NCBI GenBank assembly: GCA_016215605.1
Contig: JACRJB010000069.1
Location: 1 to 53,452 of the forward strand
Length of the DNA stretch: 53,452 nucleotides
Direction: 5' to 3'
From: Rhodopseudomonas palustris
GTDB lineage: Bacteria; Pseudomonadota; Alphaproteobacteria; Rhizobiales; Xanthobacteraceae
Positions within the stretch are counted from its first letter, which is position 1, and every line of letters begins with the position of its first letter. The position numbers were made by a program, and so were the translations under genes. The notes under the pieces are model-generated. The model was not told where the DNA came from. It worked only from the letters and a program-made list of their open reading frames with translations, and ran no database searches. This document shows positions 4,516 through 13,895 of the stretch, piece by piece.

Positions 4516-5703
4516 TTAAGCAGCGTTGCGTGTTTCCGCACGCGCGACCGCCATTTCCAGCCGCAGCGGGCTGCGGAAGGTGGAGGACGGCATCCAGTCG
4601 AGCTGCGGCTGCACCCGCGTGTAATCCGGCACCACCTTGTGAAACTCGTCGAACGCGATCTTGATCGCCATCCGGGCGATCGCCGAGCCGAGGCAGGCGT
4701 GGACGCCGCCGCCGAAGCCGAGATGGCCCTTCGGCTTGCGCGCCAGATCGTAGACGTCGGGATTGGGAAACTGCCGCTCGTCGCGATTGGCGGAGCCGTA
4801 GGCGAGGCAGACGAAATCGCCGGCCTTCATGGTGACGCCGTGCAGCGTCAGATCGGTCTGCAGGCAGCGCTTGAACCTTTGAGCCGACGTGTTGTAGCGC
4901 AGCGATTCTTCGACCGCGTCCGGCAGCAGCGCCGGATCGGCCACCACCGCGCGGCGGGCGTCGGCGAAATCGGCGAGGTTCAGCGCCAGCATACTCATGA
5001 AGCCGCCGAGCGATTCGATGCCGGCCATGATCAGCGTCGTGGTGGTCAGCAGCACCTCGCGCTCGTCGAGCCGGTCGCCATCGATCTCGGCCGTGCTGAA
5101 ATGCGAGATCAGATCGTTCTGCGGCTCGGCCCGGCGCTGCGCGATCACCTTGGCGGCGTAGTCCTGCATCCACGCATAGGCGGCGAGATGCTCCGGCCCC
5201 TTGGCGCGGGTCACCGGATCGCTCTGCACCATCAGCACCGCCTTGTCGCGCACCGTCTGCTCGTCGCCGAGCGGCAGGCCCAGCGCGGCGAACAGCACCC
5301 GCACGGTGAATTTCGACGAGAAGTCGGCGATGAACTCGAACTGCTCGCGGCCGCGCAGCGCCTCGGCGGCGTCGCGCGCGATGTCGCGCATCGGCTCGGC
5401 CAGCGCTTCGAGATTGCGCTTCATGAAGGCGTGCTGCACCAGGCCGCGCAGCCGGTCGTGGCGCGGCGGATCGGTGGTGCCGAGCGTCGCGCCGGCGCGG
5501 TTCGGCAGCTCGGTCATCAGATTGCCCTTGGCCGACGAATAGGTCTGCCAATTGGTGCCGGCCTGGGCGACGTCGATGTAGCGCGACAGCACCCACATCT
5601 GGGCCGGCTCGCTCCAGAACGCCGGATGCTCGTCACGCAGCGTCTTGTACAGCGGGAACGGATCGGCATCGACGGCGGGCGAATACGGATCGAAGCTGAA
5701 CAT
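4516..5703 (-). CDS. Cytochrome P450
   Basis: 395-residue soluble bacterial P450. Haem-binding loop FGGGVHACLG with the proximal thiolate Cys337, K-helix ExxR as E266-S-L-R269, and I-helix AGIES at 227-231, where the acid-alcohol pair used for O2 activation is Glu-Ser rather than the common Asp/Glu-Thr. No membrane anchor. Such class I enzymes need a ferredoxin and ferredoxin reductase, and none is encoded next to it. Its neighbour is protocatechuate 4,5-dioxygenase on the same strand, so a role in hydroxylating or O-demethylating an aromatic acid is a reasonable guess, but the CYP subfamily cannot be assigned by eye. Confidence 0.9.
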   Translation of the reverse strand: MFSFDPYSPAVDADPFPLYKTLRDEHPAFWSEPAQMWVLSRYIDVAQAGTNWQTYSSAKGNLMTELPNRAGATLGTTDPPRHDRLRGLVQHAFMKRNLEALAEPMRDIARDAAEALRGREQFEFIADFSSKFTVRVLFAALGLPLGDEQTVRDKAVLMVQSDPVTRAKGPEHLAAYAWMQDYAAKVIAQRRAEPQNDLISHFSTAEIDGDRLDEREVLLTTTTLIMAGIESLGGFMSMLALNLADFADARRAVVADPALLPDAVEESLRYNTSAQRFKRCLQTDLTLHGVTMKAGDFVCLAYGSANRDERQFPNPDVYDLARKPKGHLGFGGGVHACLGSAIARMAIKIAFDEFHKVVPDYTRVQPQLDWMPSSTFRSPLRLEMAVARAETRNAA

Positions 5704-5740
5704 TGCGGTGTTCCTCGGGTGTTGGTGCTTTGCTTGTTGT

Positions 5741-5821
5741 CGTCATTGCGAGCGAAGCGAAGCAATCCAGAGACCGTGCACTGCTCTGGATTGCTTCGTC
5801 GCTTCGCTCCTCGCAATGACG
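5741..5821. repeat. Dispersed palindromic repeat, family A
   Basis: Near-copy of the element at 4430-4512 with the same outer arms (CGTCATTGCGAGCG and CGCTCCTCGCAATGACG). It flanks the other end of the P450 gene, so the gene sits between two copies of one repeat family, followed at once by a family B copy. Confidence 0.8.
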
Positions 5822-5846
5822 GATCGAAAGTTGCGTCACCCCTCCG

Positions 5847-5936
5847 CGTCATGGCCGGGCTCGACCCGGCCATCCACGGCAACAGGCACTGCGCTGCTTG
5901 GCTTCGTGGATGCCCGGGTCGAGCCCGGGCATGACG
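5847..5936. repeat. Dispersed palindromic repeat, family B
   Basis: Arms CGTCATGGCCGGGCTCGACC and GGTCGAGCCCGGGCATGACG bracket a spacer of about 30 bases. Together with the preceding family A copy it occupies nearly the whole gap between ligB and the P450 gene, and the two may act as transcription or mRNA-stability barriers. Confidence 0.8.
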
Positions 5937-5971
5937 GTGTTTGTTGATCGGCGTCGGCAATCCAAACGGCG

Positions 5972-6829
5972 CTACGCCGCCCGCGCCAGCTTCGGCCGGT
6001 TCTCCAGCAGCATGATGCCGGAGGCGGTGTTGGAGATCGGGAGGTGATAGTTGCGGTGCAGTTCGTGGACGTCGCCGAGAAGCGCGCCGCGCATCGCCAC
6101 CCAGTTCATCACTTCGACGCCCTGGCTGCCGGCGAGTTCGACCAGTTCGTGCGGGTCGATGCCGAGGATGCCGTCGATGTCGCCGGTCATCGCGTCCATG
6201 CAGCGGCGGTCGAACGCGGTGTTGATGAAGCCGGCGCGTTCGCCCTCGAGCTGATGCGACAGCCCGCCGGTGCCGATCACCACCACCTTCATATCTTCCG
6301 GGTAGCTCTCGATCGCGCGGCCGATCGCCTGGCCGAGCTTGAAGCAGCGCCGCAGGCTCGGCAGCGGATGCTGCACGGTGTTGACCACCACCGGCACGGT
6401 CGGGATCGAATGCGCGCGGTCGCGGAAGAACAGCTGCATCGGCAGGCTGAAGGCGTGGTCGACCAGCATCTCCTGGCAGGTCACCGGATCGAACTCGTCG
6501 CCGACCAGGGTCTCGATGATGTGCCACGACAATTTGGCATCGCCCGGAAACGGCGCGCTGACCGGGATGCCCCAGCCCTCGTCGTCGTTGCGATATTCCG
6601 GCGCGGCGCCGACCGCGAAGGTCGGCATCTTGTCGAGGAAGAAGTTGAGGCCGTGATCGTTGTAGATCACCACCGCGGCGTCGGGCTTGGCGGCCTCGAG
6701 CCAGCGGCACGGCGCGTTGAAGCCGTCGAAGAACGGCGCCCAATACGGATCCTGCTGCAGGCCCTTGGCCATCGCGCCGCCGATCGCGGGAACGTGGGAG
6801 GCGGCCAGACCGCCGATGATCGTCGCCAT
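5972..6829 (-). CDS. ligB: Protocatechuate 4,5-dioxygenase beta (catalytic) subunit
   Basis: 285-residue class III extradiol dioxygenase that cleaves catecholic acids next to the diol using Fe(II) and O2. The metal site is visible: His12 (ASHVP), His59 (NDHGLN) and Glu239 (GVEVMNW). His192 (GTGGLSHQL) matches the catalytic base and His125 (DHAFSLP) is also conserved. It follows ligA with a 13-base gap, forming a two-gene unit. Products would enter the 4,5-cleavage (2-pyrone-4,6-dicarboxylate) route, whose remaining genes are not in the window. Closely related gallate or other catechol-acid dioxygenases cannot be excluded. Confidence 0.9.
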   Translation of the reverse strand: MATIIGGLAASHVPAIGGAMAKGLQQDPYWAPFFDGFNAPCRWLEAAKPDAAVVIYNDHGLNFFLDKMPTFAVGAAPEYRNDDEGWGIPVSAPFPGDAKLSWHIIETLVGDEFDPVTCQEMLVDHAFSLPMQLFFRDRAHSIPTVPVVVNTVQHPLPSLRRCFKLGQAIGRAIESYPEDMKVVVIGTGGLSHQLEGERAGFINTAFDRRCMDAMTGDIDGILGIDPHELVELAGSQGVEVMNWVAMRGALLGDVHELHRNYHLPISNTASGIMLLENRPKLARAA

Positions 6830-6842
6830 GTCGTCGTCTCCC

Positions 6843-7220
6843 TCAGCTGTCCCGGGCCGCCAGCAGCTTCGCCTTGAACTGCTCGACGCTCATGCCGGTC
6901 TGCAGCGCGCCGATGTCCTGCATGTTGAGGCCCAAAATGCCGGCGAATTTGGCGAGGTAGTAGGCGTTGCCGCCCTGGTCGAGCAGCTTCAGCAGGTCGC
7001 GCTTGAGGATCGCCTCGGTCTGGGCGGCGGTGAGGCCGTAGCGCGCGCAATAGGCGGCCTCGTCGCGGATGAATTCGGCGCGGGCGGCGGCGCTGTTGAA
7101 GGAGAAACACATCTTGTTGAGGGCGTAGCCCTTTTGCGCCGATTCCGGGCCGAAGATCGGCGTGCCGAAAATCTCGCGCTTGGCGCGCGGCGCGGGCTCC
7201 CTCGCCAAAGCCTGGCTCAT
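6843..7220 (-). CDS. ligA: Protocatechuate 4,5-dioxygenase alpha (small) subunit
   Basis: 125-residue helical LigA subunit that caps the active site of LigB. Recognisable stretches include GYALNKMCFSFN, the arginine/tyrosine segment AAYCARYGLT and LLDQGGNAYYLAKFAGILG. The start is set by a strong ribosome site, AGGAGGGG, a few bases upstream of the ATG. It is the first gene of ligA-ligB. The region upstream contains an FNR/FixK-like palindrome centred about 87 bases before the start codon, suggesting oxygen-linked control. Confidence 0.9.
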   Translation of the reverse strand: MSQALAREPAPRAKREIFGTPIFGPESAQKGYALNKMCFSFNSAAARAEFIRDEAAYCARYGLTAAQTEAILKRDLLKLLDQGGNAYYLAKFAGILGLNMQDIGALQTGMSVEQFKAKLLAARDS

Positions 7221-7300
7221 GGCCGTCCCCTCCTGATCGTTTCCACCGGCGGCCGTGCAGCCGCGTTTCGCGAACGATAAGCGCGCGCGGGAACCCGGAA

Positions 7301-7314
7301 TTGAGCTGGATCAA
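7301..7314. promoter_or_regulatory. FNR/FixK/AadR-like box upstream of ligA
   Basis: TTGAGCTGGATCAA matches the CRP/FNR-family consensus TTGAT-N4-ATCAA at nine of the ten defined positions. It lies in the short gap between the Nudix gene's 3' end and ligA, on the promoter side of ligA-ligB. R. palustris uses FNR-type regulators of aromatic metabolism (AadR, HbaR, FixK). Binding here is inferred from sequence only. Confidence 0.5.
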
Positions 7315-7336
7315 ATCGTCCGGCGCGCGGGCTTGG

Positions 7337-7939
7337 TCAGGCGCGGGAGCGGCCGCGCCACCAGCCGCGGAGGCGCTGCAGCAGCGTGAGCCGGGTCTCG
7401 GCCGCGTCACCGGGCTGCTCCAGCGCCAGCGACGGCGCATCGGTCAGTTCGGCGATCGGCCCCTCCTCCGCCGGCGCGGCGGGGGGCGGCAGGCGAGCGG
7501 GCGCGCGCGGCGACGGCCTCGGCATCGTGCGCCCCGCGGCGTCGAGCACCAGCGGACCGACATGGACCAGAAACGCCCGCTCGTAGCTGCGCGACAGCCG
7601 CTCGACCGCTTCGTCCAGCGGCAGCCAGTCGACGGCGCGGATGTCCTTCATCAGCGGATGGGTCTGCACCGGCGCCGCCTCCATCCGCCAGAAATGCACC
7701 ACCTTGGAGCGGCCACCCGACTCGTAGGCGAGCGTGCCGACGAATTCGTGGACCTCGACCAGATGCCCGGTCTCTTCCAGCACCTCGCGCTCGGCGGCGT
7801 CGCGCGGGGTTTCGCCGTCGTCGAGCTTGCCCTTCGGCAGCACCCAGTCGCCCCGCTTGCGCATGCGGACGACGGCGAACAGCGGATCACCGCCGCGCCG
7901 CAACACAATTCCGCCCGCCGCCAGCACAGGTGCCCGCAA
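7337..7939 (-). CDS. Nudix hydrolase with C-terminal basic/proline-rich tail
   Basis: About 200 residues. The Nudix box is complete (GKLDDGETPRDAAEREVLEETG, described as G-x5-E-x7-REVLEETG), giving a Mg-dependent pyrophosphohydrolase of the MutT/ADP-ribose/diadenosine-polyphosphate group. FAVVRMRKRGDWVLPKGK precedes it, as in Ap(n)A-type enzymes. The tail after about residue 140 is Pro/Ala rich and ends in RGWWRGRSRA, not part of the fold. I chose a TTG start at 7939 because GGAGAGGGG sits just upstream and the domain begins right there; an in-frame ATG at 8203 would add 88 residues of low-complexity sequence with no homology look. Confidence 0.75.
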   Translation of the reverse strand: MRAPVLAAGGIVLRRGGDPLFAVVRMRKRGDWVLPKGKLDDGETPRDAAEREVLEETGHLVEVHEFVGTLAYESGGRSKVVHFWRMEAAPVQTHPLMKDIRAVDWLPLDEAVERLSRSYERAFLVHVGPLVLDAAGRTMPRPSPRAPARLPPPAAPAEEGPIAELTDAPSLALEQPGDAAETRLTLLQRLRGWWRGRSRA

Positions 7940-8392
7940 CTCGATCCCCTCTCCAGGCGCTTCATCCCAAGCGCCGTGATGCCGCAGCCCGCGGTCGGAA
8001 CACCGCCGCGCGGTGTCACCGCCGCAATATAGGACGCGCCTCAGCGGGGATCGAGACGCAAGTCCGGCGGCACTCACGACCCAAGCGGCGATGCGGTCCA
8101 ACGATCCGGGCTCGCCGGACAGCATCTCGGACCCGGCGCAGCGACGGATCGCCCGCATTCGCACGCCCCTGACGGCCCCGAGACGCCGTGGTGAGCGGAT
8201 CAAATCGCGATCGTCGCCAAGCGAGGCAAGGACGCCTCGGACCTTCGGGACGCATCGCGATCCAGGGGATCAGCGGCGCCAAGGCCGCGCGAGGCTGCCC
8301 ATCAATTGGGACAGCCTGCACACAATAAGACCACGCTGCATCACTTTAGATATGCAAAACTGTTTTAAGTAGAACCGCCAAAGGGTGGGATG
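7940..8392. other. 453-base non-coding stretch between the Nudix and acyl-CoA dehydrogenase genes
   Basis: Divergent intergenic region. I see no convincing gene; open frames on both strands are Arg/Pro/Ser-rich shadows. The left part is GC-rich. The right 70 bases (about 8320-8385) become AT-rich and hold the palindrome at 8356-8366, so the dehydrogenase promoter most likely lies there. Confidence 0.5.
8356..8366. promoter_or_regulatory. Candidate operator upstream of the first acyl-CoA dehydrogenase gene
   Basis: AAAACTGTTTT is an interrupted perfect palindrome (AAAAC-T-GTTTT) 26 bases before the start codon at 8393. The same core occurs at 10449-10467 in front of the second dehydrogenase gene, next to the HTH regulator gene. 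The AT-rich sequence stands out in a GC-rich region. Proposed as a binding site of the regulator at 9697-10326; inference only. Confidence 0.45.
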
Positions 8393-9733
8393 ATGGCGAT
8401 CGACTTCACGCTGACTTCGTATCAGCGCCGCCTGCAACGGATCGCCCGCGAATTCGCCAACGACATCCTCGCGCCGCTGGTCGACGCCGCCGACGAGGAG
8501 AGCGATCCGCAACGGGCGTTCCAGGCGGTCAAAGGCGCGTATGTCGAAAGCTACAAGCTCGGCTTCGCCACCGGCTTCATCCCGAAGAAATACGGCGGCG
8601 GCGGCATCTCCAACCTCGACCTGCAGATCGTGGTCGAGGAGATCTGCGCCGTCGATCCCGGCTTCGCCACCATCCTGCTCGTCAACGGGCTGGCCTTGAT
8701 GCCGCTGGTGTGGTTCGGCTCCGAAAGCCAGAAACAGAAATGGTTGCCGCAAGCGACCAGCGATCCACGAGGCGAGTATCTGGCCGGATGGACAGTCAGC
8801 GAAGCGCCCGGCAATCCCGGCGGCACGGCCAATTTCGACGGCGCCGCAGCCTTCCCCGCCGGCATCGGACTGACGGCGCAGCACGACCGCAAGAACGGCG
8901 AATACATTCTCAACGGACGCAAGCTGTGGCCGGTGAACGCCGGCGGATGGGATCTGCGCGGCGCGGACGTCAACGTCTGCATCGTGCGAACCGATCCGCA
9001 GGCCGCAGGCTCGCGCGGCCTCAGCGCGATCATCGTGCCGCGCGACACTGCCGGGATCAGCTACGAGCGGCCGATTTCGAAGCTCGGCCACCGGCTGTGC
9101 CAGAACAACTCCGTCGTGTTCTCGGATTGCCGGGTGCCGGAGGAGAATGCGTTTGCGATCGGCGACGGCGATCTGGTGATCAACAAGGCGTTCACCTGGT
9201 CCGGCCCGGTGGCGGCGATCGCATCGGTCGGCGTCGCCCGCTCGGCCTACGAATACGCGCTGAGCTGGGCCAAGACCCACACCGGCGGCGGCGACCAGCC
9301 GATCATCAGTCATCAGGTGGTCGCCTACACGCTCGCCGAAGTCGCCATGAAGGTCGAGGCCGGCCGCGCCTTCGCCTGGAAGGCGGCGCACTATCACGAT
9401 CTGCACAACGCCGACGGCCACGCGATCGGCCCGATGGCGAAGGTGTTCTGCAGCGAGATGCTGTTCACCGCGGTGTTTCAGGCGATGAAGGTGGTCGGCG
9501 TCAACGCGCTCGACCGATCGCTGCCGCTCGAGCGCTATCTGCGCGAGGCCGCGGTGTTCCCGCTGTATGATGCCGGCAATCTCGGCATGCAGATGCGCAA
9601 GATCTGCGCGGTGATGGCCAGCCCCGATTTCGATCCGCGCGCGATCTCACGCTCGGCGGCGACGCCGTTCGGCAAGAAGGCGCCACCGCCGGAGCGTCAG
9701 GCCGTCGGCAAAAACCTGAAGCTGCAGGCCTGA
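8393..9733 (+). CDS. Acyl-CoA dehydrogenase (first paralogue)
   Basis: 446 residues from the second of two adjacent ATGs, chosen because AAGGG lies seven bases upstream and the paralogue also begins MAIDFT. FAD-dependent acyl-CoA dehydrogenase fold: helical N-domain with YGGGGISNLD, middle beta domain with GWTVSEAPGNPGGTANFD and GRKLWPVNAGGW, C-terminal helices with ERYLREAAVFPLYDAGNLG. Where MCAD-type enzymes have the catalytic Glu in YEGT, this protein has YDAG (Asp at about residue 393). It is clearly paralogous to the gene at 10581. Its 3' end overlaps that of the convergent regulator gene by 37 bases. Substrate unknown. Confidence 0.87.
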   Translation: MAIDFTLTSYQRRLQRIAREFANDILAPLVDAADEESDPQRAFQAVKGAYVESYKLGFATGFIPKKYGGGGISNLDLQIVVEEICAVDPGFATILLVNGLALMPLVWFGSESQKQKWLPQATSDPRGEYLAGWTVSEAPGNPGGTANFDGAAAFPAGIGLTAQHDRKNGEYILNGRKLWPVNAGGWDLRGADVNVCIVRTDPQAAGSRGLSAIIVPRDTAGISYERPISKLGHRLCQNNSVVFSDCRVPEENAFAIGDGDLVINKAFTWSGPVAAIASVGVARSAYEYALSWAKTHTGGGDQPIISHQVVAYTLAEVAMKVEAGRAFAWKAAHYHDLHNADGHAIGPMAKVFCSEMLFTAVFQAMKVVGVNALDRSLPLERYLREAAVFPLYDAGNLGMQMRKICAVMASPDFDPRAISRSAATPFGKKAPPPERQAVGKNLKLQA

Positions 9734-10326
9734 CCGCCGCGCTGCATGCACTCCTGATGCTCGATCGGCGCGCCCATCAGCCCGGACAGAAATCCGAGAT
9801 CGAACTGGCAGACCTCGGTGTAGTCCTTCGACAGATCGTGGAACACGCAGTTCTTGCACTCGATGCGGGGCAGCTTCTCGCCCTTGCCGGGCGAGATCAC
9901 CCGCGCCGCGAAGCCGGTCTCGTTCATGATCTTCACGATCTCGACGACCCGCTCGACCCTGGTCTTGCCGACCAGCCGCGGAATCGCGGCCGACGACATG
10001 TCGACGCCGAGTTCGAACATGTAGGCGCCGAATTTCGACGCGCCGATCTTCTTGCGCAGGCTCTCGAACATCACGCGCGAGAACCATGAATAGCGTTTCG
10101 GAAACAGATCGATCCCGCTGTCGGTGAGCGTGTACAGAAAGCGCGGCCGGCCTCCGCTCTTCGACGTGGTGTGCTGCACGTAGCCGGACCGCTCCATCCC
10201 GGCGAGATGCTGCTTCACCGCGCTGCGGGTGAGATCCACCGCGCCCGCCAGTTCGTCGATCGTCAATCCGGCCTTCGCGTCCAGGAGTTTGGCCAGCAGC
10301 TTCTGCTGGGTATCGCCGACTATCAC
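9697..10326 (-). CDS. SufR-like HTH regulator with C-terminal cysteine cluster (putative Fe-S sensor)
   Basis: 209 residues from a GTG start with GGAGG six bases upstream (a TTG three bases earlier is too close to that site). N-terminal winged helix of the DeoR/ArsR-like type: QQKLLAKLLDAKAGLTIDEL, recognition helix LTRSAVKQHLAGMERSGYV and wing GGRPRFLYTLT, then FPKRYSWFS, a signature of the SufR group. The C-terminal half has C157, C160, C173, C193 and C201, arranged as in SufR-type repressors that bind a [4Fe-4S] or [2Fe-2S] cluster. It sits between two acyl-CoA dehydrogenase genes, divergent from the second, and the flanking palindromes suggest it controls both and itself. No suf or isc genes are seen nearby, so it is not an obvious SufR orthologue. 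Confidence 0.78.
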   Translation of the reverse strand: MIVGDTQQKLLAKLLDAKAGLTIDELAGAVDLTRSAVKQHLAGMERSGYVQHTTSKSGGRPRFLYTLTDSGIDLFPKRYSWFSRVMFESLRKKIGASKFGAYMFELGVDMSSAAIPRLVGKTRVERVVEIVKIMNETGFAARVISPGKGEKLPRIECKNCVFHDLSKDYTEVCQFDLGFLSGLMGAPIEHQECMQRGGQACSFRFLPTA

Positions 10327-10448
10327 CAATCGCCTCCGCTCAGCCCCTCGCGCCAGATGTAACCCAAGAACGCCGCCGACGCTGCGTCAATTTCGGCCAC
10401 ATCCTGCCCAAAACCCCGACAGGGTGCACGCGAAAAATGCGATTGACC

Positions 10449-10467
10449 AGTTTAAACAGTTTTAACT
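10449..10467. promoter_or_regulatory. Candidate operator in the regulator/dehydrogenase divergent region
   Basis: AGTTTAAACAGTTTTAACT is a 19-base inverted repeat with one central base and eight of nine arm positions matching. It lies about 120 bases from either gene start in the 254-base divergent region and sits in a locally AT-rich patch. It shares its core with the site at 8356-8366 (AAAC-N-GTTTT), as expected for an autoregulated HTH dimer site. Confidence 0.5.
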
Positions 10468-10580
10468 GCCTAAAACATCTTCTTGTCGTTTGCCGGGTCC
10501 GGCCGATGATGGCGGTGTTGAAGCGGGGCGCCGGGCTCTTCGTCTGCAACGATCAGTAATCAGCACAGTGGAGAACGCGA

Positions 10581-11927
10581 ATGGCGATCGATTTCACGAT
10601 GTCGGCGGAACAGCGCAAGATCCAGAAGATGGCGCGGGACTTCTCCGAAGGAGTCCTGGCGCCGGTGATACCAGCGGCCGACAAAGAGCCTGATCCGATG
10701 TTGGCCTATCAGATGACCAAGGGCGCCTATATCGAGGCCTACAAGGCCGGCATCGCGATGGCGATGCTGCCGAAGGACTACGGCGGCGGCGGGCTGTCCT
10801 GCCTGGATTTCGTGATCGCGGCCGAGGAGATCTGCGCGGTCGATCCCGGCTTCGCCTGCACCGTGCTGTGCAACGGCCTCGGCCTGATGCCCGTCGCCTG
10901 GTACGGCAGCGAGGAACAGAAGAAGCGCTTCATCGGCGCGGCGACCTCCGACCCGACCGGCACCTATCTGAGCGCCTGGACGGCCGGCGAACCGCCCGGC
11001 GGCACCGGCGGCACCGCGAATTTCGACAGCCCCTTGCCGAAGGCCGGCATCGGCATGACCGCGGTGCGCGACGGCGATTACTTCATCCTCAACGGCAAGA
11101 AGAAATGGTCGTCGTCGGCCGGCTGGGACGGGCTCGGCAGCAACACCCAGACCGCGATCATTCGGACCGACAGCAGCGTCGGCGGAACCGAGGGACTCTC
11201 GGCGATCGTCGTCGAACGCGGCACGCCGGGGATCACCTGGAAATTCCTCGACAAGGAAGGCCACCGCACCACCTCCAACGCGCTGGTGATCTTCGACAAC
11301 GCCAAGGTCCCGGTCGACAATCTGCTGCCCGGCGCCAAGGGCAACGGCGACTTCGTGATCAACCGCAACTTCGCCTGGTCCGGCCCGGTGGCCGCCATCG
11401 CCGCCGTCGGCGTGGCGCGCGCCGCCTACGAGGACGCGCTCGCGTTCCTCAAGAAGAACACCGCCGGATCGCTGACGCCGATCATCCGCTTCCAGAACGC
11501 CGGCTACATCATGGGCGACGTCGCGGCGAAGATCGAATCCGCCCGCTACTTCTCCTGGCGTGCGGCGGACTATCTCGACAAGCACGCGCAGCACGCCGAG
11601 CTGCTCGGGGCGATGTGCAAGATCAACGTCACCGAGGCGATGTTCGAGTGCGTCTACAAATGCATGCAGATCGTCGGCGTGAACAGCCTGTCGACCGAGT
11701 ACAAGTTCGGCAAATATCTGCGCGAAGCCGCGGTGCTGCCGATCTATGACGGCGGCAACATGGGCATGCAGCGCCGCCGCGTGCACGGCGTCATCGCCGA
11801 GGAGAGCTTCAACCCGCGCGCGATCATGGACGACGATTTCGTGCCGTTCGAGAAGACCATGGAGGCGATCGACACCGTCGCCGACCCGATCGCGAAGTCC
11901 CGCGGCATTATGCAGGCCGCGGAGTAA
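10581..11927 (+). CDS. Acyl-CoA dehydrogenase (second paralogue)
   Basis: 448-residue acyl-CoA dehydrogenase with the same architecture as the gene at 8393, sharing long blocks such as EEICAVDPGFA, GGTANFD, FAWSGPVAAIA and KYLREAAVLPIYDGGNMGMQ. FAD-contact motif SAWTAGEPPGGTGGTANFD-type loop at about residues 133-150. At the position of the canonical catalytic Glu it has Asp390 (YDGG). GGAGA precedes the ATG by eight bases. A terminator-like hairpin follows. With the acyl-CoA ligase downstream it suggests activation and dehydrogenation of an organic acid; the two paralogues could act as a pair (heteromer) or on successive intermediates. Confidence 0.88.
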   Translation: MAIDFTMSAEQRKIQKMARDFSEGVLAPVIPAADKEPDPMLAYQMTKGAYIEAYKAGIAMAMLPKDYGGGGLSCLDFVIAAEEICAVDPGFACTVLCNGLGLMPVAWYGSEEQKKRFIGAATSDPTGTYLSAWTAGEPPGGTGGTANFDSPLPKAGIGMTAVRDGDYFILNGKKKWSSSAGWDGLGSNTQTAIIRTDSSVGGTEGLSAIVVERGTPGITWKFLDKEGHRTTSNALVIFDNAKVPVDNLLPGAKGNGDFVINRNFAWSGPVAAIAAVGVARAAYEDALAFLKKNTAGSLTPIIRFQNAGYIMGDVAAKIESARYFSWRAADYLDKHAQHAELLGAMCKINVTEAMFECVYKCMQIVGVNSLSTEYKFGKYLREAAVLPIYDGGNMGMQRRRVHGVIAEESFNPRAIMDDDFVPFEKTMEAIDTVADPIAKSRGIMQAAE

Positions 11928-11933
11928 GCTCCC

Positions 11934-11959
11934 GGGACCGGCCGAACAGGGCCGGTCCC
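11934..11959 (+). terminator. Hairpin after the second acyl-CoA dehydrogenase gene
   Basis: A perfect ten-base-pair stem (GGGACCGGCC with GGCCGGTCCC) and six-base loop start seven bases after the stop codon. The following sequence (ACCTTCC) has only a weak T run, so this is terminator-like rather than a textbook intrinsic terminator. It would separate the dehydrogenase from the ligase transcript. Confidence 0.55.
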
Positions 11960-11985
11960 ACCTTCCCGGAGTTGCTCACAAATTT

Positions 11986-12016
11986 CGTCATGGCCGGGCT
12001 TGTCCCGGGCATGACG
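11986..12016. repeat. Short palindromic repeat, family B
   Basis: CGTCATGGCCGGGCTTGTCC followed directly by CGGGCATGACG: the arms of the family B element joined without the usual spacer. It lies in the 333-base gap 11928-12260 with the hairpin at 11934-11959. In the rest of that gap (12017-12260) I see no gene or clear signal. Confidence 0.65.
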
Positions 12017-12260
12017 CGTGGAGACAAAAGTGCCCGAACCGAAAGAGTGCATTTCCGGCCGGCCTCTCAGGATGACGACTCCGCAGTCGAGGCGACGGCT
12101 TCGCTTCAATCCATCGATGGATTGATCGCGCCACTGCACGAGCGGACTGGCGGTGAGCCCATCCGCCGGGATAATCTCTCCCGGCACCGCCGCAGAGCTG
12201 GTGCCGGACCGCAGCGGACACGCCGCGCGGCCGAGAAGAAACGACCACGAGGACACGCGC

Positions 12261-13895
12261 ATGACTTTCTGGGCAGAGCCCGGCATCGGCGGACCGCTGC
12301 GCCGCGAAACCCATTATGGCGACCGGACGATGCTGTGCTTCGCCGAGCGCCCGCCGACGCTGGCCGCGATGTTCGACGATCTGGTCGCCCGGTTCGGCGA
12401 CCGGCCGGCGATCGTCGACGACGGCACGCTGAGCTATTCCGAACTCGACGCGCTGGTGGGCAAGATCGCGGCGGCGCTGACCGGGCTCGGCATCGCGCCG
12501 GGCGATCGCGTCGCGCTGTTCCTCGGCAATTGCTGGGAGTTCCTGGCCGTGACGCTGGCCTGCAACCGGATCGGCGCGCTGCTGGTGCCGATCGGCACGC
12601 GGCAGCGCAAGGCCGAGCTGGAATTCCTGCTCGGCAACAGCGGCGCCAAGCTACTGGTGTTCGAGGCCGAGCTGGCCGACCAGATTCCCTCCGCCGCCGA
12701 AGCGCCGGAGCTGACGCATCGCTTCGTCGCGCACGGCGACGCGATCGGCGCACGGCCGTTCGACGATCTGCTCGCCGCCAACGACGCCGATGCGCCGCGG
12801 GTGGAGATCCACGAGGATGACACCGCGGTGATCCTCTACACCTCGGGCACCACCGGCAAGCCGAAAGGCGCAGAGCTGACGCATCTCAGCATCCTGCATT
12901 CGGCCTACGCCTTCGCCCGCGCGCATGAACTGACCGAGCACGACCGCGGCCTGGTGGCGGTGCCGCTGTCGCACGTCACCGGGCTGGTCGGCGTGTCCTA
13001 CGCGACGCTCGCCGCCGGCGGCTGCGTGGTGCTGATGCGGCAGGCGTTCAAGACTGCGGATTTCCTCGCGCTCGCGTCGCGCGAGACCATCACCTGGTCG
13101 ATCCTGGTGCCGGCGATCTACACGCTGGCGGTGATGCATCCGGAGTTCGACCGCTACGATCTGTCGGCGTGGCGGATCGGCTGCTTCGGCGGCGCGCCGA
13201 TGCCGGTGCCGACCATCGAGATGCTGAGCAAGCGGCTGCCGCAACTGCAGCTCCGCAACGCCTATGGGGCGACCGAAACCACCTCGCCGACCACGATCAT
13301 GCCGCAGGCGCATTGGCGCGATCACATGGACAGCGTCGGCCAGGTGATCCCCTATGCGCAGGTCCGCGTACTCGACGCCGACGACAACGAGGTCGCGCCG
13401 GGCGAGCCCGGCGAGCTGCTGATCGCCGGCCCGATGGTGGTGCCGCGCTATTGGCGGCGGCCGGACGCCAACGCCAAGGAATTCGTGGACGGCTATTGGC
13501 GCAGCGGCGATATCGGCTCGATCGACAAGGACGGCTTCGTCCGGGTGTTCGACCGCAAGAAGGACATGATCAACCGCGGCGGCTTCAAGATCTTCTCGGC
13601 CGAAGTCGAGAACGTGATCTGCGGCCTCGACGGCGTGCTGGAAACCGCGATCATCGGCACCCCCGACCCGGTGCTCGGCGAACGCGTCAACGCCATCGTG
13701 GTGACGGCCGAGGGCGCGTCGGTGAGCGAACGCGACGTCGCCGCCTACTGCGCGGCGCGGATGTCGGACTACAAGGTGCCGGAAAGCATCATCATCCGCA
13801 CCGACCCGCTGCCGCGCAACGCCAACGGCAAGATCCAGAAGACCGTGCTGCGCGAAACGATCGCGGAGCGCGCGGCGCGGCACAGCGCGGCGTAA
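12261..13895 (+). CDS. Acyl-CoA synthetase / AMP-dependent ligase
   Basis: 544 residues from an ATG preceded by GAGG. ANL-superfamily adenylating enzyme that activates a carboxylic acid with ATP and CoA. The P-loop-like motif ILYTSGTTGKPKG is at residues 191-203, the A5-type motif NAYGATET near 338, the hinge region SGDIGSIDKDGFVRVFDRKKDMI follows (about 417-440), and the C-terminal catalytic lysine is in ANGKIQK (about K524). It lies downstream of the acyl-CoA dehydrogenases on the same strand and could supply their substrate. Chain-length or aromatic preference cannot be read by eye. An upstream in-frame start exists but lacks a ribosome site. Confidence 0.88.
   Translation: MTFWAEPGIGGPLRRETHYGDRTMLCFAERPPTLAAMFDDLVARFGDRPAIVDDGTLSYSELDALVGKIAAALTGLGIAPGDRVALFLGNCWEFLAVTLACNRIGALLVPIGTRQRKAELEFLLGNSGAKLLVFEAELADQIPSAAEAPELTHRFVAHGDAIGARPFDDLLAANDADAPRVEIHEDDTAVILYTSGTTGKPKGAELTHLSILHSAYAFARAHELTEHDRGLVAVPLSHVTGLVGVSYATLAAGGCVVLMRQAFKTADFLALASRETITWSILVPAIYTLAVMHPEFDRYDLSAWRIGCFGGAPMPVPTIEMLSKRLPQLQLRNAYGATETTSPTTIMPQAHWRDHMDSVGQVIPYAQVRVLDADDNEVAPGEPGELLIAGPMVVPRYWRRPDANAKEFVDGYWRSGDIGSIDKDGFVRVFDRKKDMINRGGFKIFSAEVENVICGLDGVLETAIIGTPDPVLGERVNAIVVTAEGASVSERDVAAYCAARMSDYKVPESIIIRTDPLPRNANGKIQKTVLRETIAERAARHSAA

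Follow-up and report, generated by a model that had tools for sequence, protein, structure and literature searches.

SufR-type regulators are known from two roles, the control of iron-sulfur (Fe-S) cluster assembly and, in the case of ArnR, of nitrate respiration. In the passages of the literature on which the comparison is based (PMC6034842, PMC12343034, PMC10848736), Mycobacterium tuberculosis SufR (Rv1460) has three proposed cluster ligands, C203, C216, and C244, which are needed for function; the reconstituted protein bound a cluster, read as 2Fe-2S, and cyanobacterial SufR bound a 4Fe-4S cluster (PMC6034842). ArnR of Corynebacterium, a SufR-like winged-helix protein with a [4Fe-4S] cluster, responds to nitric oxide (NO) and controls the nitrogen-oxide genes narKGHJI and hmp; the passages of its description mention a conserved His near the cluster but not a fourth Cys, the fourth ligand being without experimental proof (PMC12343034). 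In these partial accounts, NO attacks the clusters of both SufR and ArnR, which leads to loss of repression or of DNA binding. Here we analyze contig JACRJB010000069.1 of Rhodopseudomonas palustris, 53,452 nucleotides long and referred to below as the window (contig C53 of a 5.79-Mb genome), in which a SufR-like regulator gene is found between two genes of the acyl-CoA dehydrogenase (ACAD) superfamily, acd1 and acd2.

An earlier reading of this DNA from its letters (the original prediction) had proposed two acyl-CoA dehydrogenases under a SufR-like Fe-S regulator acting through a shared operator, with an acyl-CoA ligase as a further member. The two paralogous genes on either side of the regulator are confirmed: both proteins contain the N-terminal, middle, and C-terminal Pfam acyl-CoA dehydrogenase domains, all above cut-off, and share 50% identity. 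The predicted cysteines 157, 160, 173, 193, and 201 and the FPKRYSWFS segment (residues 75-83) also stand in the numbering of the 209-residue regulator, which the mechanical open reading frame (ORF) list starts at a TTG one codon earlier. The regulator and acd1 genes overlap at their 3' ends by 37 bp. Overall, the observation itself has become sharper and the proposed regulator is largely supported in form, while acyl-CoA oxidation is doubtful and the ligase is rejected. We lean, if only slightly, towards a horizontally moving, self-contained cassette in which a pair resembling nitroalkane oxidase (NAO) is repressed by a dedicated, cluster-bound Fe-S regulator on two operators, perhaps in response to NO.

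The link between the regulator and both enzymes comes from the operators. Palindromes with an AAAC-N-GTTTT core had been placed before both enzyme genes, at 8356-8366 (AAAACTGTTTT) and 10449-10467 (AGTTTAAACAGTTTTAACT), and they are real: AAACNGTTTTAA, allowing one mismatch at most, occurs three times in the window, always inside the two sites, for 0.03 matches expected, and chance is therefore not their origin. The patches around both sites have a GC content of 33-34%, as compared with 68% for the window. The conserved element is longer than predicted, however, with its arms outside the core, which is mostly spacer. An alignment of the upstream DNA (13 sequences, of which L002/L016, L003/L010, L004/L014, and L005/L015 are doubled loci, leaving nine distinct ones) displays islands of conservation at the sites amid diverged surroundings, and more distant loci yield the refined motif TTTHGRCA-N8-TGYCDAAA, with conserved outer arms and an 8-bp spacer. 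In the gap between the regulator and acd2, a site with at most two mismatches to this motif is found in 17/17 loci, the window included, and none of 200 shuffles is as good in any of them. Before acd1, 15 of the 17 loci possess a site (2-4 mismatches; equalled by 0 to 9 of 200 shuffles), that of the window having three mismatches to the refined motif (2/200 shuffles as good) and one to the 24-bp pattern. These loci are distinct but include near relatives, the sites of L011 and L086 being identical. Both sites are kept in Rhodopseudomonas, Bradyrhizobium, and other genera of this family; Shinella and Paraburkholderia retain the one between the regulator and acd2. The original prediction had staked its shared operator on conservation in related genomes, and one operator family is indeed conserved before both dehydrogenase genes. 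Across the whole genome, the 24-bp pattern with up to three mismatches returns the two sites (one on both strands) and a single three-mismatch match elsewhere; with close matches at these two places only, the regulator looks local. The regulator probably controls both enzyme genes through one shared conserved site.

Some points weigh against this view. The Shinella and Paraburkholderia loci are devoid of a site before acd1, which in Paraburkholderia follows acd2 with the same orientation. The Acidisphaera locus (L017), which has the regulator and acd1 only, shows no site in front of its regulator gene. It was left out of the 17 loci, as were two further places without a match to the refined motif, the Rrf2-type locus L090 and the stretch in front of the Paraburkholderia regulator (L081b). 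Lastly, the refined motif was drawn up after inspection of these same loci, which makes the shuffle figures look better than they should; the less biased supports are the core as originally predicted and the genome-wide search. A wider regulon in this genome was rejected at the stringency tested: five other places matching the 10-mer lie in or beside unrelated ORFs (by eye), and none matches the longer site.

Table 1. Features of the acd1-regulator-acd2 locus, in window coordinates
Feature	Position	Strand	Description
Operator O1 (putative)	8345..8368	+	TTTAGATATGCAAAACTGTTTTAA; upstream of acd1, its end 21 bp from the acd1 ATG
acd1	8390..9733	+	ACAD-superfamily flavoprotein, 447 aa, NAO-like; Asp394 and Ser271 at the positions of NAO Asp402 and Ser276
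Regulator gene	9697..10326	-	SufR-like winged helix, 209 aa; C157-x2-C160-x12-C173-x19-C193-x7-C201
Operator O2 (putative)	10451..10474	-	TTTAGGCAGTTAAAACTGTTTAAA on the minus strand; divergent regulator/acd2 gap, at distances of 124 bp to the start of the regulator gene and 106 bp to that of acd2
acd2	10581..11927	+	Paralogue of acd1, 448 aa; active-site pattern as in acd1
AMP-binding (acyl-CoA) ligase gene	12261..13895	+	ATG at 12261 chosen by the analyst

The distribution of the three genes indicates a self-contained cassette rather than a fragment of a pathway. Flanking genes vary among loci (by eye), and acd1, the regulator, and acd2 stay together. When 41 relatives were searched with acd2, the five matches at 1e-90 were the five genomes with a strong regulator match, and a further one of the 41, with only a weak regulator relative (G041, E 1.3e-5), had no acd2. 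The cassette is rare: the regulator is found at 1e-20 in 13/391 genomes of the family, and the acd1 type at 1e-100 in 3/398 genomes across the phylum, that of the window included. It occurs in soil and photosynthetic bacteria and is transferable. Orthologues of the regulator are present in Rhodopseudomonas, Bradyrhizobium, other genera of the family, Acidisphaera, Shinella, and Paraburkholderia. Exceptions are the Acidisphaera locus, whose regulator and acd1 lie on a 7.4-kb contig without acd2, and Paraburkholderia sp. PGU19, which has the regulator and the acd1 type and no acd2 type at the cut-off. Against a strict association, acd1 homologues in G1130 and G1370 have no regulator nearby. Searches for enzyme pairs in other families, which scored few candidates per genome and may thus undercount, returned 1/327 genomes (G1370) and 1/181 (G1130, the search center itself), both with a lone gene of the acd1 type. 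In another bacterial family, such a lone gene (68% identical; L100:4145-7359) adjoins an aldehyde-dehydrogenase-like gene (by eye). The ligase, tried as a fourth member, does not belong to the module: among the loci compared, it follows acd2, besides the window, only in two close relatives (L010 and L016), and no close operator match precedes it. The sequences of L011 and L012, like those of the short G loci, end too early to tell.

The enzymes depart from the predicted acyl-CoA dehydrogenases. Among solved structures in the PDB, the best hit of acd1 is NAO (E 4e-52; best ACAD 3e-43), and a profile of 12 members of the family likewise places NAO (3e-75) ahead of the best ACAD (3e-58), with E-values 17 orders of magnitude apart. 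The alignment of acd1 with the NAO structure 2c0u runs beyond the usual end of ACADs and pairs NAO Asp402 with acd1 Asp394, while acd1 Ser271 and Gln401 occupy the positions of NAO Ser276 and Arg409. In NAO, the Asp is the catalytic residue and the Ser its partner. The Asp is present in 12/12 members and the Ser in 11/12. Ordinary ACADs carry a catalytic Glu in a YEG motif; the family has Asp at this position throughout and in this respect is not canonical. As with the fungal nitroalkane oxidases (2c0u, 3mkh), to which both enzymes are closest among solved structures along almost their full length, Asp and Ser are kept; unlike them, the enzymes are bacterial, come in pairs, in one case lie near an electron-transferring flavoprotein (ETF) beta gene, and exhibit Gln at the Arg409 position in all 12 members. 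This Gln is a point against an NAO function, and so is the result for acd2 by itself, for which the margin is only about tenfold (NAO 4e-48, best ACAD 4e-47). If residues and hits are weighed together, the enzymes group towards NAO within the superfamily without being plain NAOs. Of the original prediction, their place in the ACAD superfamily holds, acyl-CoA oxidation being doubtful.

The strongest competing explanation, a real contender although we judge it less probable than not, keeps ordinary ETF-linked ACADs acting on an unusual acid, the regulator making this catabolism iron- or redox-responsive, as first proposed. Besides the Pfam domains and the small difference for acd2, it draws on the CoA ligase gene downstream of the pair, present in the window and in two close relatives, and on the ETF beta gene next to the enzyme pair of a Sulfitobacter plasmid, which speaks for a dehydrogenase. 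The lead of NAO in the family profile and the lack of conservation of the ligase argue against it, as does the Asp found where Glu is usual, yet some cyclohexane-carboxyl-CoA dehydrogenases reportedly use Asp as well.

The regulator itself returns SufR as its best NCBIfam model (E 1.9e-15), and its five cysteines are invariant in 12/12 sequences (the window protein and 11 orthologues, 54-96% identity). The spacing of C160, C173, and C201, 13 and 28 residues, equals that of C203, C216, and C244 in M. tuberculosis SufR. An alignment anchored on the CxxC instead makes C157 the first ligand, with a 3-residue insertion; C157 and C160 are both invariant. In a set of distant SufR-like relatives (32 genome sequences and the cyanobacterial L109), 33/33 possess three cysteines spaced 13 and then 30 (27 sequences), 29 (5), or 28 (1), together with a His placed eight residues ahead of the last Cys; at this place the cassette family has Cys193 (eight ahead in 9/12 members, nine ahead in 3/12). 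The pairing of Cys193 with this His is made by a profile alignment, in which the relative L036 stands in two rows, one of them a short false fragment, and by the distance to the last Cys; MAFFT does not pair them. Cys193 is thus predicted to be the fourth cluster ligand, and the conserved His of ArnR possibly lies at the corresponding place. The distant relatives themselves (L007-L009, L031-L059, L109) represent a widespread family in which the invariant His is a candidate fourth ligand next to the three Cys. Three alphaproteobacterial ones (L038, L039, L041) have a neighboring gene in which a motif of the Rieske type, CNNRCPHEGYPLxEGTL, was recognized by eye, another possible Fe-S regulator link.

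The assignment to SufR proper meets several objections. The score of 57.1 bits falls short of the equivalog cut-off of the SufR model (TIGR02702, 178.8 bits), as do those of the Shinella orthologue L080 (59.5 bits) and of L081 (61.3 bits); this cut-off is strict, since L109 misses it as well (127.2 bits). Counted on the raw sequences, the 13/28 spacing holds in 9/12 members and the last interval is one residue longer in three (L006, L080, L084), and with 13/28 to 13/30 in the distant relatives this spacing marks the wider family rather than SufR itself. Furthermore, Cys variants of M. tuberculosis SufR retained the ability to repress a reporter in M. smegmatis, according to passages of PMC6034842; cluster and repression need not be coupled. 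As in SufR, a winged helix precedes a C-terminal cysteine region with three Cys spaced 13 and 28, and an adjacent target has its site in a divergent gap, as described for Synechocystis in the same passages. Unlike SufR, the regulator has the low score given above, two local sites, and the additional Cys157 and Cys193, and sufB is on another contig (C33, 10159-11574). The suf genes were considered as its target and rejected: the genome-wide 24-bp search gave no operator match at the sufB region, a test that is indirect because it takes the palindrome as the regulator's own site. Neither was a suf gene annotated around L080 and L081, nor was one recognized by eye at the other loci, and the genome contains a single regulator of this kind at E ≤ 0.001. 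The protein does not belong to ArnR either, which we compare by its description: the cysteines of ArnR (Cys179/193/223) are spaced 14 and 30, and genes other than nar and hmp lie at the sites in the window. The regulator may therefore work like SufR or ArnR but is not SufR; what is supported is a SufR-like form whose cysteines are spaced as in known Fe-S sensors.

Rather unlikely, in our estimation, is a ligand- or zinc-binding regulator of the V4R/MsvR kind, its cysteines forming a structural zinc site or disulfides, that senses a small molecule such as the substrate of the enzymes. The C-terminal half does match MsvR (E 2.4e-4) and V4R (E 0.09) weakly, below both cut-offs (20.9 vs 220 bits and 13.3 vs 31 bits), the Paraburkholderia orthologue matches MsvR more strongly (E 3.8e-8), and local substrate-sensing regulators are the usual arrangement for catabolic genes. 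But SufR beats MsvR in the three family members scanned (the window protein, L080, and L081), and a protein reported in passages of PMC6034842 to bind a cluster in vitro has the same three-Cys spacing.

The position of the operators bears on the direction of control. A sigma-70 scan found no consensus promoter beside them, so position alone cannot tell a repressor from an activator; the closeness of O1 to the acd1 ATG favors repression, while the position of O2 does not decide at acd2. That the palindromes are AT-rich promoter elements for a general factor, the regulator acting elsewhere, would suit their expected promoter places and a scan that offered no other promoter there, but it is very improbable given the two good copies of the site in the genome, the drift of the acd1 and gap sites together by lineage (TTTTGGCATATAAATTGCTCAAAA with TTTCGGCATAAAAAACTGTCAAAA in L083), and the absence of a detected site at L090.

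In the cassette reading that we prefer, the regulator would be a dimer with an Fe-S cluster on C160, C173, C201, and probably C193. By analogy with SufR and ArnR, the cluster-bound dimer would occupy the two operators and repress acd1 and acd2, and the gap shared with acd2 would allow it to control its own gene as well. If NO or another cluster-damaging signal caused the cluster to be lost or nitrosylated, derepression would follow. The best guess for the substrate is a nitro compound, which would be converted to an aldehyde or ketone and nitrite. With an oxidation that yields nitrite, an NO-responsive Fe-S switch would be sensible. An objection comes from ArnR, whose DNA binding is abolished by NO and not by nitrite (passages of PMC12343034), so nitrite would have to act through NO.

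Related loci supply clues to the signal. On the Shinella plasmid p2 (L080:1246-7775), ribA, nirB, nirD, and cysG directly follow acd2 on the same strand, which fits flavoenzymes that release nitrite. The nirBD link is limited to this one locus, and the genome of the window (0/1) has no match above the NirB cut-off, which is strict (2/14 control genomes pass); both points count against the preferred reading. Two partial matches to the NirB model lie near each other on contig C43 of that genome. On plasmids of Rhodococcus and Sulfitobacter, distantly related enzyme pairs adjoin a regulator of the Rrf2 family, that of the Fe-S regulators NsrR and RirA and different from the family of the window regulator. 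The Rhodococcus regulator gene lies between the two enzyme genes, one of whose products (rhod_A) is 72% identical to acd2. Both Rrf2 proteins contain a C-x6-C-x5-C motif; they score similarly with the RirA and NsrR models and reach neither cut-off. On the plasmid of Sulfitobacter sp. S190 (L090:5701-15536), a group III truncated hemoglobin is encoded ~3 kb upstream of the Rrf2 regulator, and the ETF beta gene and a gene for an FAD-binding protein follow the pair. The same stretch also encodes a protein with a (2Fe-2S) ferredoxin domain. The Rhodococcus locus has a 25-bp palindrome of its own, AAATCGGTATTTGTAATACTGATTT, before the first enzyme gene (L091:9790-9990). A fuller version of the proposal, which we hold only tentatively, is that a bacterial pair oxidizing nitroalkanes or nitronates is under a dedicated four-cysteine Fe-S sensor of the SufR/ArnR type, which detects NO formed from the nitrite set free, the SufR-like family being swapped for Rrf2 around the same enzymes in other loci.

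If this is true, Fe-S sensing would reach as far as a catabolic cassette, in which a SufR-like regulator devoted to NAO-like enzymes has a regulon of two sites; a bacterial route for nitro compounds would also be indicated, and bench work would gain a precise operator, the related pairs beside Rrf2 regulators being a natural experiment on which signal matters. In the mostly open-access literature searched, no paper was apparent, among the matches listed, that links SufR to acyl-CoA dehydrogenase or to COG2345, or nitroalkane oxidase to NsrR, nitrite reductase, Rrf2, or, in this sense, the ACAD superfamily. Upstream of the cassette, window positions 4516-8203 encode P450-like, LigA/LigB-like dioxygenase, and Nudix-like proteins (by eye), and stretches of this region recur next to the cassette in L010 and L016.

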